NCBI RefSeq assembly: GCF_000275865.1
Contig: NZ_CM001555.1
Span: 2,134,967-2,198,966, forward strand
Direction: 5' to 3'
DNA from: Methanofollis liminatans DSM 4140
GTDB lineage: Archaea; Halobacteriota; Methanomicrobia; Methanomicrobiales; Methanofollaceae
Length of the DNA stretch: 64,000 nucleotides
The notes under the pieces: model-generated
The model's database searches: none
Seen by the model: only the letters and a program-made list of their open reading frames with translations
What the model was told of the DNA's origin: nothing
Position numbers and translations under genes: made by a program
Part shown: piece by piece, positions 15,140 through 55,499 of the stretch
Layout: every line of letters starts with the position of its first letter
Position numbering within the stretch: the first letter of the stretch is position 1

Positions 15140-15651
15140 AGTTCATCAGCAAATACGATTGGGGCAGGGACGGGCAGACCACGCCGGCACGTTCATCCAT
15201 CATTTTTCATCGAGAGATGCGCCGCCCTCCCCGTCCTCGCATGTCCAGGGCAATTGTATGCAGGGGTCCTGGGGTAAGAACCCCCGGCGCTGTGGCCCCT
15301 CCACACCCTGAAAAATCATCACATCTTCGCATCTGGAGAGTAAGAGTTCAGGAAAATCGAGTAGCCTCCTCCCGGGGGGCCTGCTGCCCCCCGACCCCCC
15401 CGCCGATTGCGATAGGGGCAGGGATGGACAGACCACGCCGGCGCTCCGGTCTATCATTTTTCATCAACAGATGTCCCGCCCTCCCGCCCCCGCATATCCA
15501 GGGCAATCATGCGCGCGGGGGTCCGGGGGTGGCAACCCCCGGGCAGAGGCGGACTTCGAAATTCGTTCTATCGTCTCTTCACATCAAGAACGTGCGGGTT
15601 CTGAAAAGTCAAAGAGTCCTCTGCCGGGGGGCCAACCGCCCCCCGACCGCA
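15140..15651 (-). repeat. Hairpin-repeat array A (one full unit flanked by two partial units)
   Basis: The whole gap between the radical SAM gene and the S2P gene is repeat. Read on the minus strand it holds the second half of a unit (15651-15548), one full unit (15547-15290) and the first half of another (15289-15140). Hairpin H2 (GGGGGGC, 5-base loop, GCCCCCC) lies at 15626-15644 and 15374-15392. Hairpin H1 (CCGGGGGT, 4-base loop, ACCCCCGG) lies at 15523-15542, and an imperfect copy at 15268-15287. The sequence is closely related to the array at 46.5 kb, where it is in the opposite orientation. Short open frames in it are not consistent between units. Confidence 0.9.
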
Positions 15652-45690: not shown

Positions 45691-46434
45691 ATGCGCCGCC
45701 TGACATGGGAGATGCGTCTTGGAATATTTCTTGTCGCCGCTTCGGCGGTGATTTACACGGCGAAGTTTCTAGTCCTCGGGGACCCGGAGAATACCTATTA
45801 TTACGTCTTCAACGCCCTCGGTTTCCTGCCGATCAACGTGCTGCTCGTCACGGTCATCTTGAACCAGCTCCTCTCGGTGCGGGCGAAGCGCGAACGGCTT
45901 GAGAAGATGAACATGGTGATCGGGACGTTCTTTTCAGAGGTCGGGACGACCCTGCTGGTCAGGCTCTCTGACCGGGATCCGAACCTCCCGTCGATCAAGG
46001 AGGATCTCGTGGTCGGAAACGACTGGTCGGACGCCGATTTCGCCAGGGTCAGAACGCGCCTTGAGGGATATTCCTCGGGGGTTACAATCGATCCCGCAGA
46101 ACTGGTCGTGCTGAAGGAGTACCTGATGAAAAAACGCAATTTCCTTCTTCGCCTCCTGGAAAACCCGATGCTGCTGGAGCACGGGCCGTTCACCGAGGTG
46201 CTGAGGGCGGTCTTTCACCTCACCGACGAACTGGATCGGCGGGACGACCTCGCGGGCACCCCGGAGAGCGACCAGAAGCACCTTGCCGGCGACATCAACC
46301 GCGCCTACCGGCTGCTGGCGCTCGCGTGGCTGGACTACATGAAGTACCTCAAGAACAATTACCCGTACCTCTTCTCCCTCGCGATGCGGACCAATCCCTT
46401 CGACGAGACGGCCTCGCCGGTGGTGAAGGCCTAA
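45691..46434 (+). CDS. Membrane protein of unknown function
   Basis: 247 residues with two N-terminal membrane helices (LGIFLVAASAVIYTAKFLVL and YYVFNALGFLPINVLLVTVI), then a long soluble, mostly helical region rich in charged residues. It ends with a Tyr-rich patch (LDYMKYLKNNYPYLFSLAMR). No catalytic motif is seen. ATG 45691 is chosen because it precedes the first helix; ATG 45655 is in frame. The soluble part might be a scaffold. Not recognised. Confidence 0.65.
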   Translation: MRRLTWEMRLGIFLVAASAVIYTAKFLVLGDPENTYYYVFNALGFLPINVLLVTVILNQLLSVRAKRERLEKMNMVIGTFFSEVGTTLLVRLSDRDPNLPSIKEDLVVGNDWSDADFARVRTRLEGYSSGVTIDPAELVVLKEYLMKKRNFLLRLLENPMLLEHGPFTEVLRAVFHLTDELDRRDDLAGTPESDQKHLAGDINRAYRLLALAWLDYMKYLKNNYPYLFSLAMRTNPFDETASPVVKA

Positions 46435-46520
46435 GGTCCCCCTTTTTTTCGATTTTATGGCTCTGTCGAAATCCTCACGTTTCCGGATGCGAGCGTGATT
46501 CATTCGCCTTCCCCCATCTT

Positions 46521-47360
46521 CGCGCCGGGGGTTGCACCCCCGGACCCCCGCGTGCGATTGCCCCGAGTGTGCAGGGAGAGGCGAGGTGGAGAATCTATCG
46601 GTAAAAAAAGCGGGATGGGCGTGCCGGAATGGTTTGCCCATCCCCGCACCAATCGCATGTGCGGGGGGGTCGGGGGGCGGCCAGCCCCCCCGGGGGAGGC
46701 TGCTCGGTTTTCCAGAACTCTTACTCTCCAGGTACGAAGACACAATATAACGAATAGCAAAGTCCGCCTCTGCCCGGGGGTTGCACCCCCGGAGCGCCGC
46801 ATGCGATTGCCCCGGACGTGAGGATTCGGGCCGGGTGGAGTGTATCTCGATGAAAAATTATGGATAGGCGTGCTGGCGTGTTTTACCGTTCCCGCCTCTA
46901 TCGTATTTGCGGGGGGACCGGGGGGCAGCAGGCCCCCCGGGAGGAGGCTACTCGATTTTCCTGAACCCTTACTCTACAGATGCGAAGATGTGATGATTTT
47001 TCAGGGTGGAGGGGCCACCGCGCCGGGGGTCCTTACCCCCGGACCCCGCGTGCGATTGCCCCGGATATGAGGGGGTTCGAGCGGCGAATCTGCCGGAAAA
47101 AATCCTGATGGTCAGGCTGGCGTGGTTTGCCCGTCCCTGCCCTTATCGCATTCGCGGGGGGACCGGGGGGCGGCCAGCCCCCCGGGAGAGGCAGAACCAG
47201 ATTTCCCGTACGCTCACGCAACACGCGCCTCTGCCCGGGGGTTGCACCCGATTGGGGCGGATTGCCCATGACATGCAGGGAGGGGGAGGCCCGAGCATCT
47301 TTCGATGGGAAAATGCCGGATGGACATGCCGGCGCCGTTTGCCCGCCATCGCCCCGGAAC
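46521..47360 (+). repeat. Hairpin-repeat array B (three units and a partial fourth)
   Basis: Tandem units at 46521-46771, 46772-47019, 47020-47233 and a decayed copy from 47234. H1 hairpins (CCGGGGGT-loop-ACCCCCGG) lie at 46525-46543, 46774-46792 and 47023-47042. H2 hairpins (GGGGGGC-loop-GCCCCCC) lie at 46672-46690, 46920-46938 and 47165-47183. Loops vary (TGC, CCTT; GGCCA, AGCAG) while stems are kept. A GTGCGATTGCCCCG-like block follows H1 in each unit. 46924-47020 is nearly identical to 15283-15385 on the opposite strand (about four differences). No transposase, RNA gene or conserved reading frame accompanies it; 47361-47546 holds nothing recognised. Confidence 0.92.
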
Positions 47361-47546
47361 ATCCCCATAATGTGCGGCGACGGAAGGGCGCAAGGCAGGG
47401 GTGCCATGTCCGGAGCATTCTTCTCCGATGCAGGAGGAGATGATCTGCCTGCAGGCGATTGTGAGCGGCAGGAGACAAAAAAAGATGCAGGCCGGGCGTC
47501 AGGATCGGCCTTGCGCATTTGTACACTGGGGTGCGAGTGTCCTCTT

Positions 47547-47882
47547 CTAGATGCTCACCTCCTCGGTCCGGACCTTTGCGGCCATGTCCAGCGGCAGGAC
47601 GAAGACCTTGCCGTCGCCTATCCTGCCGGTCCGGGCCGCCTCCCTGATGATCTGGACGACGGTCTCGGCAAAGGTCGCCGAAACCGCCATCTCGATCCTG
47701 ATCTTCGGGATCAGGTCGACGGTCACCGGGCCGCCGCGGGACCGGAGGGCGATGCCCTTCTGCTCGCCCCGCCCCCGCACCTCGGAGACGGTCATTGCCG
47801 GGAAGCCCTTTTCCGCAAGGGCTTTTTCCACCTGTTCGAATTTTTCCGGGCGTATCACCGCGATGATCATCTTCATCATCAT
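47547..47882 (-). CDS. glnK: PII nitrogen regulatory protein (GlnK family), T-loop without tyrosine
   Basis: A 111-residue trimeric PII protein that senses ATP/ADP and 2-oxoglutarate and blocks the Amt channel. The fold is typical (IIAVIRPEKFEQVEKALAEK; GRIGDGKVFVLPL). The T-loop reads GEQKGIALRSRGGPVTVDLI; the position of the usual uridylylated Tyr is occupied by PVTV, so classic uridylylation is impossible. It follows the amt gene by 6 bases and probably shares its promoter. Confidence 0.93.
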   Translation of the reverse strand: MMMKMIIAVIRPEKFEQVEKALAEKGFPAMTVSEVRGRGEQKGIALRSRGGPVTVDLIPKIRIEMAVSATFAETVVQIIREAARTGRIGDGKVFVLPLDMAAKVRTEEVSI

Positions 47883-47888
47883 GCCACC

Positions 47889-49085
47889 TCACGTGTGGGC
47901 CGACTCCCCGTGCTGGGAGATGTCGAGGCCCACATATTCTTCGTCCTCGCTGACACGGAGGCCGAGCGTCCGGTCGACAATCCACGCGAGGGCGTAGGTC
48001 ATGCCGAAGGCGTAGACGAGCGCCGCACCGGCGTCGACGACCTGGATGACGAACTGGTCGACGTTGCCGTAGAGGAGACCGTCGACACCGCCGACCGCCG
48101 CCACCGCAAAGATCCCTGTTGCAATCGCTCCCCAGAGCCCGCCCATGCCGTGGACGGCCCAGGCGTCCAGGCTCTCGTCGAGGCCGCGGCTGAGGCGGAA
48201 GAGCATGGCGCCGTAGCAGAGCAGACCGGCAACCCCGCCGATGGCGATCGCCGAGACCGGGTCGACGAAGCCCGCCGCCGGGGTGATGGCGACCAGGCCG
48301 GCGATCGCACCCGAGATCATCCCGAGGGAGCTCGGTTTGCCGCGGTACCAGGAGGCGACAAGCCAGGCGATCGCACCCGCCGCCGCCGAGGTGTTGGTGA
48401 CCACGAAGGCGCTCGCCGCAAGACCGTTTGCCGCAAGGGCGCTGCCGGCGTTGAACCCGAACCAGCCGAACCAGAGCAGGGCGCCGCCGATGAGGGTCAG
48501 GGGGATGTTGTGCGGCTCCATCGTATAGGTGCCGAACCCGACCCGGCGCCCGATCACCAGCGCAAGGGCCAGGGCCCCGAAGCCCGAGGAGATGTGGACG
48601 ACCGTGCCGCCCGCGAAGTCCAGCGCACCGAGGGACGCCGCCCACCCGCCGCCCCACGCCCAGTGGGCGAGGGGATCGTAGACGAGGGTCGTCCAGAGCA
48701 GCCCGAAGACGATGAAGGAGCTGACCTTCACCCGCTCGGCCGCACCCGAGGTGACGATCGCAAGGGTCAGCCCGGCAAAGACGAGCTGGAAGACCATGAA
48801 GAGCAGGTCGGGGATCCCCTCGCCGTCCATGCCGACCCCTGCAAGGCCGAGGTAGTCGAGCCCGCCGATGAACCCGCCGATATCGGTGCCGAAGGCCAGG
48901 GAGTATCCAAAGAGGATCCACTGGAGGGAGACCACCGAGAAGGCGATGAAGGCGAGGGTGATCATGGCGATGATGTTCTTCCGCCGCACAAGGCCGCCGT
49001 AGAAGAGGCCCACGCCCGGCGTCATCAGCATGACCATCGCCGTGCAGATCAGGATGAAGGCGGTATCGCCGGCATCGATCGCCAT
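47889..49085 (-). CDS. amt: Ammonium transporter Amt
   Basis: A 398-residue, 11-helix ammonium channel. The start [33 protein letters not shown] holds the first helix and pore-entrance region. The twin-histidine elements [13 protein letters not shown] and [11 protein letters not shown] line the pore. The C-terminus [20 protein letters not shown] is the cytoplasmic tail used for GlnK control. ATG 49085 is preceded by the stop of a 104-codon gene one base away. Operon order: 104-codon gene, amt, glnK. Confidence 0.95.
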
Positions 49086-49086
49086 C

Positions 49087-49401
49087 TCAGATCACCCCGT
49101 GGCAGACGGCGCCATCGGTCGCCGCGTCCTCGACCATCGAGCCCTGCCAGAACCCCTCAGCCACCGCGGCCAGGGCGCGGCTCTCCGGGGTGCTGCCCTC
49201 AACCGCCTCGAGCCCTGCCGAGATCGCCGCTGCACGGCTCGTTTCCTGCCAGAACCGTTTGGCGACGGCGATTGTGGTGAGGCCGACGTATTCGGCGTCG
49301 TCACCCCGGGGCGCAGGGGAGAGGCTGCCGGGATCTCCGGCAGACTGGCTCCCCGCATACCGGGAGAACACATACCCTTCCGGGTGCATCGTTGTCACCA
49401 T
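49087..49401 (-). CDS. Hypothetical protein leading the amt-glnK operon
   Basis: 104 residues, no membrane segment, with [20 protein letters not shown] and the ending [16 protein letters not shown] do not recognise it. Reality is supported by position: ATG 49401 lies directly after a TATA box (about 49430-49441) and the GGAA-N6-TTCC operator, and the stop is one base from the amt start. If it were not translated, amt would have a leader of over 300 bases. Competing plus-strand frames here lack start signals. Confidence 0.6.
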
Positions 49402-49413
49402 CGTAATCTGGAA

Positions 49414-49427
49414 GGAAGTTGACTTCC
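49414..49427. promoter_or_regulatory. NrpR-type operator (GGAA-N6-TTCC) upstream of the amt-glnK operon
   Basis: GGAAGTTGACTTCC: an exact match to the NrpR repressor consensus GGAA-N6-TTCC known from methanococci. It sits 13-26 bases before ATG 49401 and just after the minus-strand TATA element AATTAAATATGG, where binding would block transcription start. NrpR releases DNA when 2-oxoglutarate is high, that is under nitrogen limitation. Confidence 0.8.
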
Positions 49428-49449
49428 ACCATATTTAATTATTTCCAAA

Positions 49450-50655
49450 TTACATCTGGAGCGACTCCCCGTGCTGGGCGATGTCCAGCCCCACGTACTC
49501 CTCCTCCTCGCTCACCCGCAGCCCCATCACCCGGTCCACCCCCTTCGCAAGGAGATAGGTCATGCCGAAGGCATACGCCATGGCAGCGAGGGCGCAGACG
49601 ACCTGGACGAGGAGTTGCCCGGGGTTTCCGGCCAGGAGGCCAGCAGTTCCGCCGACCGCCGCCACGGCGAAGACGCCCGTGGCCACCGTCCCCCAGAGCC
49701 CGCCGACGCCGTGGACGGCCCAGGCGTCAAGGCTCTCGTCGAGGCTGCGTTTGATGCGCAGGAGCATCGCCCCATAGCAGAGGAGGCCGGCGACGGCCCC
49801 GATGGCAAGCGCCCCCATCGGGTCGACGAAGCTTGCGGCCGGCGTGATGGCGACGAGGCCGCCAATCGCCCCGGAGATCATCCCGAGCGAGCTCGGCCTG
49901 CCCCGGTACCAGGAGGCAAAGAGCCAGGCGAGCGCACCCGCGGCGGCCGCGGCGTTCGTGGTGACCAGGGCATTCGCCGCCGCACCGTTCGCAGAGAGCA
50001 CGCTCCCCGCGTTGAACCCGAACCACCCGAACCAGAGCAGGGCGCCGCCGATGAGAGTCATCGGGATGTTGTGCGGCTCCATCGAGTACATCCCGTAGCC
50101 TGCCCGCTTCCCGATCACCAGGCAGAGGGCGAGGGCCGCAAACCCCGAGCAGATCTCGACGGCCATACCGCCGGCGAGATCGAGCACGCCCATTGTCTGC
50201 GCCCATCCGCCGCCCCAGGCCCAGTGGGCGATCGGGTCGTAGACCAGGGTCGTCCAGAGCAGCCCGAAGACGATGAAGGAGCTGATCTTCACCCGCTCGG
50301 CCGCACCCGAGGTGACGATCGCAAGGGTCACCCCGGCGAAGGTGAGCTGGAACGCCATGAAGAGCAGACCAGGGATCCCCTCGCCATCCATCCCGACACC
50401 GGCGAGGCCGAGGTGGTCGAGGCCGCCGATCACCCCGCCGATATCGGTGCCGAAGACGAGGGTGTAGCCGACGAGCATCCACTGCACCGTGACGAGGGAG
50501 AAGGCGATGAAGGAGAGAGCGATCATCGAGATAATATTCTTACGCCTGACAAGGCCGCCGTAGAAGAGCCCGACGGCCGGGGTCATCAGCATCACCAGGG
50601 CGGTGCTGATGAACACGAATGCCGTGTCGCCCGCATCGATCGCTATGGTCCGCAC
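49450..50655 (-). CDS. amt: Ammonium transporter Amt (second copy)
   Basis: A 401-residue Amt closely related to the one at 47.9 kb ([28 protein letters not shown]-like tail; ending [17 protein letters not shown]). [21 protein letters not shown] replaces the VVHISSG segment of the first copy, so the first pore-His region is Glu-Ile-Cys here; the second, [11 protein letters not shown], is kept. The start is GTG 50655 because the family begins MAID and no ATG is present. No glnK follows it. Confidence 0.93.
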
Positions 50656-50767: not shown

Positions 50768-52096
50768 TTAGTACTTGGAAAGGTACTGGTCAAGTTCCCA
50801 GGGGTGGACCATCGTCCTGAAGGCGTCCCACTCCATCTCGGCGATCGTGTTAAGGTTCTCAACGATGTGAGGGCCGAGGGCGTTGCAGATGAGCTCGTCC
50901 GCCATGAGGGCGGCGTTCGACTCGTAGAGGCTGCCCGGCAGGGTGTCGATGCCGGCCGCCTTCCGCTCCTCGGCATTGAGCTTGAAGATGTTCCGGTCGG
51001 CGCTCGGGGGCGGGGTGATCCGGTTCTTCACGCCGTCCAGACCTGCCGCAAGGATGGCGGCGAAGGTGAGGTACGGGTTGCAGGTCGGGTCAGGGCTGCG
51101 GATCTCGACACGGGTGCTGTTGCCACGGGGTGCGGGCACACGGCAGAGGGCCGTCCTGTTCGAAGCGCTCCAGGACATGTAGACCGGGGCCTCATAGCCG
51201 GGGACGAGACGCTTGTACGAGTTGATCGTCGGGTTTGCGACCCTGGTGATGGCGCGGATGTGCTTCAAGATGCCGCCGATGAAGAACAGGGCGGTCTCCG
51301 AGAGCTGGAGGGGCGCGTCCGGGTCGTAGAAGGCATTCTTCCCGTCCTTGAAGAGGGAGCAGTTGGTGTGCATACCGCTCCCGTTGATCCCGTAGACCGG
51401 TTTCGCCATGAACGAGGCATGGAGCCCGTTGAGGAGGGCGATCGTCTTCGTGGCGAACTTGAAGGTGACGACATTGTCGGCGGTCTGGAGGGCCGAGCCG
51501 TACTTGAAGTCGATCTCGTGCTGGCTCTCGGCCACCTCGTGGTGGGAGGCCTCGATCTCAAAGCCCATCTCGGTCAGGGCGAGGACGATGTCCCGGCGGA
51601 CGTCCTCGGCGAGGTCGGTCGGGGCCAGGTCGAAGTAACCGCCGACGTCCTGGTACTGGGTGGTCGGCTCCCCGTCGCACATCTTGAAGAGGAAGAACTC
51701 GAGTTCAGGGCCGGTGTTGAAGGTGTAGCCCATCGATGCGGCCTCGGCAACGACCTTTTTCAGGGCGAAGCGGGGGTCGCCCTCGAAGGGCTTGCCGTTG
51801 GGCAGGTAGACATCGCAGATGAACCGTGCGACCTTGGCCTCCCCCTTCCTCCAGGGCAGGAGCGTGTAGGTGGAGATGTCGGGCTTGAGGACCATGTCCG
51901 ACTCTTCGATCCGGGCGAATCCCTCGATGGACGAGCCGTCAAAACCAATCCCGTCGGTCAGGGCCTTCTCGGCCTGGATGTGCGGGATCGCGACGTTTTT
52001 CGGGTGACCGGTCAGGTCCGAGAACTGAAGGCGAATGAACTTTACGCCGTCCGCCTTGATTCTTTCCAGCATTGCTGCAACCGCGTCTGCTGACAT
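50768..52096 (-). CDS. glnA: Glutamine synthetase, type I
   Basis: A 442-residue GlnA, which makes glutamine from glutamate, ammonia and ATP. Conserved parts: [18 protein letters not shown] (beta-grasp), the metal site [52 protein letters not shown] and [15 protein letters not shown]. The adenylylation-type Tyr segment is not present in the usual form (the C-terminal region reads [12 protein letters not shown]), so this is the I-alpha form. ATG 52096 immediately follows an NrpR-type operator. It is divergent from the glutamate synthase genes. Confidence 0.97.
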
Positions 52097-54759: not shown

Positions 54760-55499
54760 AGATGGTCGTGCATATCGATGCAGCAGACCTGCACTACACG
54801 CCGCTGAACAAACAGATCAGGGCGGCGGTCAGGGACGGCGAGACCGAGATCGTCATCGACCACGTCCTGGGCCAGCGGTTCATCGCCGACGGCCTGGTCG
54901 GCGAGGTCACGATCACGGTCAACGGCGTTCCCGGCGGCGACCTCGGGATGCTCATGCGCGGCCCGACGCTCGTCGTCCACGGCAACGCCGACCACGCCCC
55001 GGGCAACACGATGGACGGCGGGACGATCGTCGTCCACGGGAGCGCCGGAGACGCCGTCGCCCACTCGATGCGCGGCGGGAAGGTCTTTGTCAGGGACGAC
55101 ATCGGCTACCGCGGCGGGATCCACATGAAAGAGTACGAGGAAAAGCGCCCGTGCCTGGTCGTCGGCGGGAACGCACGCTCGTACCTCGGCGAGTACATGG
55201 CCGGCGGGATCGTGCTCGTCCTCCGCATGGGCGAGACGGGGCCGTTCGTCGAACGCGGGATCGCAAGCGGGATCCACGGCGGCGAGGTCTACATCAGGGG
55301 CGAGGTCGATGAAAACTGCCTCGCGATCGGGGCGAAGGTGCTCCCCTTCGACGAGGAGCACCGGGCGCGGATCCGGCCCCTGATCGAGGAGTTCTGCCGG
55401 CACTTCGGGGTCGATGCCGCCCCGCTGCTCGGGGCGGACTACACCCGGATCGGCCCGGCGAGCGCCCGGCCCTTTGCCGGAAAATACACCTGGGAGTGA
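54756..55499 (+). CDS. gltB3: Glutamate synthase, GXGXG-domain subunit
   Basis: 247 residues of the right-handed beta-helix that ends bacterial GltB: repeated Gly-rich turns GNADHAPGNTMDGGTIVVHG, GSAGDAVAHSMRGGKVFV and GGNARSYLGEYMAGGIVLVL. It is structural and stabilises the catalytic subunits. GTG 54756 overlaps the preceding stop by four bases; ATG 54762 is possible. The next gene starts directly after its stop. Confidence 0.92.
   Translation: MKMVVHIDAADLHYTPLNKQIRAAVRDGETEIVIDHVLGQRFIADGLVGEVTITVNGVPGGDLGMLMRGPTLVVHGNADHAPGNTMDGGTIVVHGSAGDAVAHSMRGGKVFVRDDIGYRGGIHMKEYEEKRPCLVVGGNARSYLGEYMAGGIVLVLRMGETGPFVERGIASGIHGGEVYIRGEVDENCLAIGAKVLPFDEEHRARIRPLIEEFCRHFGVDAAPLLGADYTRIGPASARPFAGKYTWE

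Follow-up and report, generated by a model that had tools for sequence, protein, structure and literature searches.

The repeat array and its genomic context

The window, that is, the whole analysed stretch of 64,000 nucleotides from Methanofollis liminatans DSM 4140, carries at 46525-47355 an array of three good repeat units and one decayed unit, which lies between two convergent genes, one for a 247-aa hypothetical protein (plus strand, stop at 46434) and the other glnK (minus strand, 47547-47882). The distances between successive unit starts are 249, 249, and 212 bases. Each unit contains, in this order, the hairpin H1, an arm GTGCGATTG, an inner inverted repeat, an arm CAATCGCAT, and the hairpin H2, and H2 together with its arm approximates an inverted copy of H1 with its arm. 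The features are as follows.

46459..46524 (+), left end of the mini-transposon; terminal inverted repeat GGCTCTGTCGAAATCCTC at 46459-46476
46525..46693 (+), unit 1, based on sequence, profile match, and structure columns; H1 46525-46543; H2 46672-46690; arms 46552-46560 / 46650-46658; inner inverted repeat 46612-46620 / 46636-46644
46694..46773 (+), long spacer between units 1 and 2; core AACCCTCAC...GATGCGA-like, resembling the left end minus its outer terminal repeat
46774..46941 (+), unit 2, profile match
46942..47022 (+), long spacer between units 2 and 3
47023..47186 (+), unit 3, profile match
47187..47234 (+), short spacer between units 3 and 4
47235..47355 (+), unit 4, decayed, covering profile positions 1-126 only
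47356..47479 (+), eroded right side with no recognisable right terminal repeat; the element ends somewhere short of the oligo-A/glnK terminator region, which lies at about 47476
about 15149..15542 (-), array A, a further copy of two units, 15375-15542 and 15149-15287

The preliminary description of this DNA had reported three near-complete units and a decayed fourth, and these were confirmed at 46525-46689, 46774-46937, 47023-47182, and 47235-47355; both of its stems, H1 (CCGGGGG...CCCCCGG) and H2 (GGGGGGC...GCCCCCC), are present as stated, and no consistent reading frame runs across the units, just as it had said. Its outline of the array was right as to the repeats but too short on the left, since the element actually starts at 46459, about 60 bp earlier. 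The transposon-type left end GGCTCTGTCGAAATCCTC, the longer inverted arms GTGCGATTG...CAATCGCAT of each unit, and the inner inverted repeat GGGATGGGC...GCCCATCCC inside it had been overlooked. The 66-base left-end query matched G000:2181425-2181490 in the home genome (G000) with 92% identity (E 6e-22), and directly in front of this left end is the oligo-T tract in which the upstream gene finishes. The right-end query had no match at 47356..47479, a side that was judged also from the empty site in G006 and the filled site in G003 (see below), and array A showed no recognised ends.

In the same region (window 47547-50655, minus strand), glnK is followed by two neighbouring ammonium-transporter-like genes of 398 and 401 aa, which form a tandem duplication, as judged by their similar sequences, and are adjoined by a glutamine-synthetase-like ORF at 50768-52096. 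Beside a glutamate-synthase-like gene a 57-base unit is present in 2.2 tandem copies (window 54954-55080) and is apparently coding.

Copies in the home genome and kinship of the units

Within the home genome, a single contig of 2.475 Mb, BLAST with the unit query gave 90 matches (best E 5e-128 for the query itself and 3e-70 for another locus), while an iterated profile gave 96 unit matches forming 40 arrays of 1-5 units in 36 stretches; the array loci were analysed as these 36 stretches with some parts masked as N. The spacers between units belong to two classes, 26 short (50-59 bp) and 25 long (81-88 bp).

The best match of a unit lay inside its own array for only 5 of 83 units, and thus the arrays have not recently grown in place. 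In six two-unit elements the first units are on average 89% identical and the second units 87% identical between loci, while unit 1 and unit 2 inside one element are 82% identical. Because each unit is more alike across loci than to its neighbor, these identities show that two-unit elements spread as wholes.

The tandem order of the units would agree with a purely local tandem duplication without mobility, a possibility that the preliminary description had connected with an occurrence at two loci only and no conservation in relatives. What was found is 40 arrays genome-wide, conservation throughout the genus, and element ends with target duplications (see below); local duplication was rejected on the kinship of the units, and its probability is practically negligible. 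Integration associated with tRNA genes was also rejected, as ARAGORN detected a tRNA at only 5 of the 36 array stretches, and a tRNA trailer is therefore excluded as the conserved right end.

Element ends and target duplications

Many arrays have a common left end starting with GGCTYTGT (GGCTTTGTAGAAATCATCAC), some 66 bases ahead of the first H1, and a common right end (...TTTTCAACAAAGCC) about 158 bases beyond the last unit, finishing with ACAAAGCC. In the home genome these ends form terminal inverted repeats (GGCTTTGT.../...ACAAAGCC). In the copy at L318 the inverted repeats are perfect over 18 bp. There were 19 left-end and 18 right-end matches in the home genome, and both ends are present in ten elements of 371-1062 bp; about half of the arrays are without one or both recognised ends, their membership being called by units.

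Perfect 8-bp direct repeats flank five of the ten two-ended home elements (AAAAAAAG, AAAAGAGC, GAAAAAAT, GCTGTCAG, and GGATAATC), and perfect 8-bp duplications were also found in relatives (CTTTATTG, CTAATTTG, ATGAAAAG, ATTTTTTC, GTTCGTCC, GAAAAAAG, and AAAATTCG). Altogether the 8-bp flanks are perfect in 12 of 24 two-ended copies (10 from the home genome and 14 single-unit copies from relatives, selected by recognisable ends and not by flanks), against a mean of 0.6 and a maximum of 5 in 20,000 permutations. The copy at L254 has a perfect 9-base repeat, which the 8-base count scored as a miss. The duplicated repeats are AT-rich (70% over 16 perfect cases including insertion sequence copies), while the AT content of the window is about 35-39%.

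Other flanks were also observed. A second left flank type (GGYTCTTYGCCCTTTCACGCAGGCGACCCC...) stands just upstream of the first unit in L133, L134, L135, and L145 and is perhaps the end of a different mini-transposon family with the same units. Another repeat family with similar ends (GGCTCTGTTGAATCRGGCATGAGTC...) occurs beside transposase genes and arrays (L287 at 374 and 3161, L289 at 1000, L300 at 1398 and 2885, and the upstream flank in L146), and its copy in L289 has an inner ATGAAATGTTTTTCATG palindrome.

Distribution in the genus and the window site in relatives

In the set of 61 searched genomes the host genus is represented by 12 species and is the only genus of its family. The terminal pattern GGCTYTGTAGAAAYCCTCAC, searched with up to 2 mismatches, was present in 11 of the 12 species, with 445 sites in G001, 308 in G002, 68 in G009, 27 in G004, and 11 in the home genome; the sites are ends, so the elements are fewer. 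Copy numbers in this archaeon and its close relatives run from dozens to hundreds. The reversed control pattern gave 0 sites in all 12 genomes. Beyond the genus, the searched set contained no more than two marginal matches. The ordinary form in relatives is a single unit of 228-306 bp bearing H1 and H2. The GGCTCTGTTGAAACCCTCAA copies in G004, considered as a possible autonomous element, look like additional gene-less copies.

The window site itself was compared between species. In the nearest species (G003), where the upstream gene is 94% identical, the left end, a changed unit set, and the decayed last unit are found at the orthologous place, and the insertion, being common to G000 and G003, predates their split. 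Its right end is eroded in both genomes, which leaves no readable target duplication at the window copy. G006 has an empty site: glnK and the orthologous gene (81% identical) are about 160 bp apart there with no element between them.

Separate insertions of the family follow the orthologous gene in G002 and G009, with the 8-base repeats GAAAAAAG and CTTTTTTC, respectively, and these fit a preference for oligo-T stretches. The G009 copy downstream of the 247-aa gene orthologue (L313) begins GAGATCTGTAG rather than GGCTCTGTAG; this start matches the flank after the target duplication, as if the flank overwrote the end. An IS256-family element interrupts the 247-aa gene orthologue of G003 (G003:C1:1630755-1631822; L312, L158), and this genome has about 28 near-full IS256-family copies and dozens of IS4/IS5-type transposases, far above its sister species.

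The candidate transposase

The element is gene-less, being too short for a transposase gene and having no consistent frame across its units. The absence of a transposase nearby, mentioned in the preliminary description, is true and is to be expected with movement in trans. A candidate partner was found by testing transposase families one after another, five in all, and retaining that whose ends matched. Transposases of IS1595, ISL3, and IS6 were absent from the genus in the Pfam search, and IS256 elements, which are present in the genus, were rejected as the mover because their ends (read as GGATCTGACAGTGTAACG...) do not match.

The fifth family is IS5. In G005 an IS5-family element of 1008 bp has the ends GGCTCTGTAGAATTCC / GGCCCTGTAGAAACCC and the duplication GAACAATC, and its transposase scores 237 bits against NCBIfam NF033579 (IS5; cut-off 140). 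The copies in G003 are 1007 bp long, with GGCTTTGTTGAATCCC ends and the duplications GTGCATAT and CATCGAAC, while the home genome has one related transposase ORF (269 aa from the first ATG, NF033579 182 bits) with worn ends. The IS5-family elements of G005 and G003, and likewise the ORF of the home genome, have only the terminal 12-17 bp or so in common with the gene-less element. Because of the shared ends, the duplication length, and the co-occurrence, the IS5-family element of about 1007 bp is the best candidate for the partner.

Folding and the question of a structured RNA

The preliminary description had suggested a structured RNA family, in which the stems stay perfect while the loops differ. 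This is true for the copies compared there but not across 60 units, in which 84% of cells are paired in H1, 78% in the arms, 71% in the inner hairpin, and 90% in H2. Overall pairing in these units is 80.0%, in comparison with 79.6% when the partners are shuffled. Double changes numbered 30, more than the shuffled mean of 21.3 but inside the range of 18-43 over all six slid controls (most 25-43), which keep the relatedness among units. Covariation, for which the preliminary description had suggested a test on H1 and H2, gave no support to the helices. The RNAalifold consensus consisted of only 4 pairs, to which the alignment quality in G/C runs may contribute.

The most direct form of this proposal, a structured non-coding RNA family with the H1 and H2 stems under selection, agrees with the largely intact stems and with the very stable predicted folds (z -2.6 for the plus strand and -2.1 for the minus strand), though such stability is expected of GC-rich inverted repeats. 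Against it stand the pairing at shuffled level, an Rfam scan of the window in which a tRNA was the only match, and the presence or absence of copies depending on the species. Moreover, in relatives the arm beside H1 pairs with the left-end side and not with the arm beside H2, and thus conservation of the fold does not extend across the genus. Such an RNA family is highly improbable, and the hairpin array is most probably neither a new RNA nor a replication signal.

Repetitive palindromes and a possible role between genes

A REPIN/BIME-type origin would explain the unit as a pair of inverted palindromes (H1 with its arm against H2 with its arm) spread by a RAYT, a Y1 tyrosine transposase associated with REPs, and the arrays as BIME-2-like clusters, which agrees with the two hairpins, the inverted flanking arms, the alternation in tandem arrays, and the two spacer classes. 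However, the ends and the 8-bp target duplications are the mark of DDE transposition, and Y1 elements are not known to make such a target duplication. The dispersed thing is also not a single hairpin. Although published BIMEs share such layout, the hairpins (H1) are preceded here by CGCG or CTGC and not by the GTAG of published REPs (PMC2817692). Therefore the REP-like option of the preliminary description is correct with regard to architecture but disagrees with the ends, the duplications, and the missing GTAG tag, and this origin is very unlikely.

The position of the copies relative to genes suggested another explanation, namely, that those between convergent genes serve as bidirectional terminators or insulators and are retained for this domesticated role. 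According to heuristic gene calls for the 40 arrays, 22 are convergent, 15 tandem, and only 3 divergent, counts that are suggestive of a convergent-gene bias, and G002 and G009 acquired separate insertions after the same gene. The same pattern, however, results from insertion at terminator-like oligo-T sites together with the loss of harmful promoter insertions, so the orientation bias is explained without a host function; in addition, G006 has no element at the window site, and the arms and stems decay without compensation. A domesticated role is accordingly considered unlikely.

Origin and movement of the element

With a probability of about 90%, the array represents the inner part of a MITE with an 8-bp target duplication, for which an IS5-family DDE transposase acting in trans is the most likely mover. 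The preliminary description had listed a MITE-like element among its options, and that option agrees with the terminal inverted repeats, the 8-bp duplications, the empty site, the high copy number, and the IS5-family candidate partner.

The proposed mechanism can be described as follows. The element is a non-autonomous DNA transposon with ends GGCTYTGT(A)GAAA... (MITE ends GGCTYTGTAGAAA), at the insertion of which 8 bp of target are duplicated, and the DDE transposase of the IS5-family elements of about 1007 bp, chosen by shared ends, would move it in trans. It ordinarily consists, in relatives, of one unit of 228-306 bp with a pair of GC-rich hairpins. Its interior has multiplied to 1-5 units in the home species, presumably by way of copies joined head to tail that then lost the ends at their junction, and the two-unit elements afterwards spread whole. 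Insertions occur at AT-rich, often oligo-A/T sites, and most copies are located between convergent genes, where the harm is least. The hairpins are then inherited parts of the element, with no cellular role needed.

The head-to-tail step was assessed on the long spacers. Their consensus aligned locally with the left end of a relative with a score of 23, in comparison with 15.0 ± 2.7 for shuffled sequences (4 of 500 as high), while for other left-end queries 13 of 500 and 29 of 500 shuffles were as high; no significant resemblance to the right end was found. The derivation of both spacer halves from element ends was not retained, as support was obtained for the left-end half only, and there is modest support, on the left-end side of the alignments, for the long spacer as a product of fused ends. 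A further, doubtful scenario is transposase-driven tandem growth, in which head-to-tail dimers would lose their palindromic junction and lock as co-moving multi-unit elements, turning a mini-transposon into a dispersed satellite, with some copies becoming boundaries of convergent genes.

The MITE reading accounts for the conspicuous intergenic repeats of these methanogens, which in some species reach hundreds of terminal sites and are mistakable for small RNAs or regulatory signals. Since forms with one unit, two units, and more are available, together with comparable sites in relatives, it also offers a traceable archaeal case of the way from a mini-transposon to a dispersed tandem repeat.

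Comparison with known systems

A literature search for a described repeat of such kind in Methanofollis or Methanoculleus gave nothing relevant, and the closest systems are therefore of a general type. Archaeal MITEs derived from insertion sequences have been described as 26 families in 30 genomes, plus 18 more (Kamoun et al. 2013, PMC3852290), and their likeness to insertion sequences is usually limited mostly to the ends (PMC3852290). The present element resembles them in being gene-less, in having terminal inverted repeats like those of a candidate partner insertion sequence, in having target direct repeats, and in occurring often in more than 10 copies (PMC3852290). It differs from them in its interior of two GC-rich hairpins with inverted arms, in the 1-5 tandem interiors of the home species with elements of up to 1062 bp, and in a number of terminal sites that reaches the hundreds in G001 and G002. 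With the IS5 family of insertion sequences (NF033579) it has in common the ends GGCTYTGTWGAA... and the 8-bp target duplication, whereas it carries no transposase and the common part is only the terminal 12-17 bp or so.

BIMEs and REPINs (PMC2817692, PMC3116915) are similar in their inverted hairpin pairs, tandem clusters, recurring spacers, and intergenic location; in contrast to them, the present family has 8-bp duplications, DDE-type ends, and no GTAG, and whole arrays are dispersed rather than REP pairs. Prokaryotic satellites (PMC6749651) are also similar, being non-coding tandem units of 100-260 bp which occur in methanogens as families genome-wide; the words transposon and MITE are absent from that survey (PMC6749651), whereas here the carrier is identified as a transposon with ends. 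In summary, the array belongs to a known kind, a MITE family, probably driven by IS5, and its internally tandem form in the home species is uncommon.
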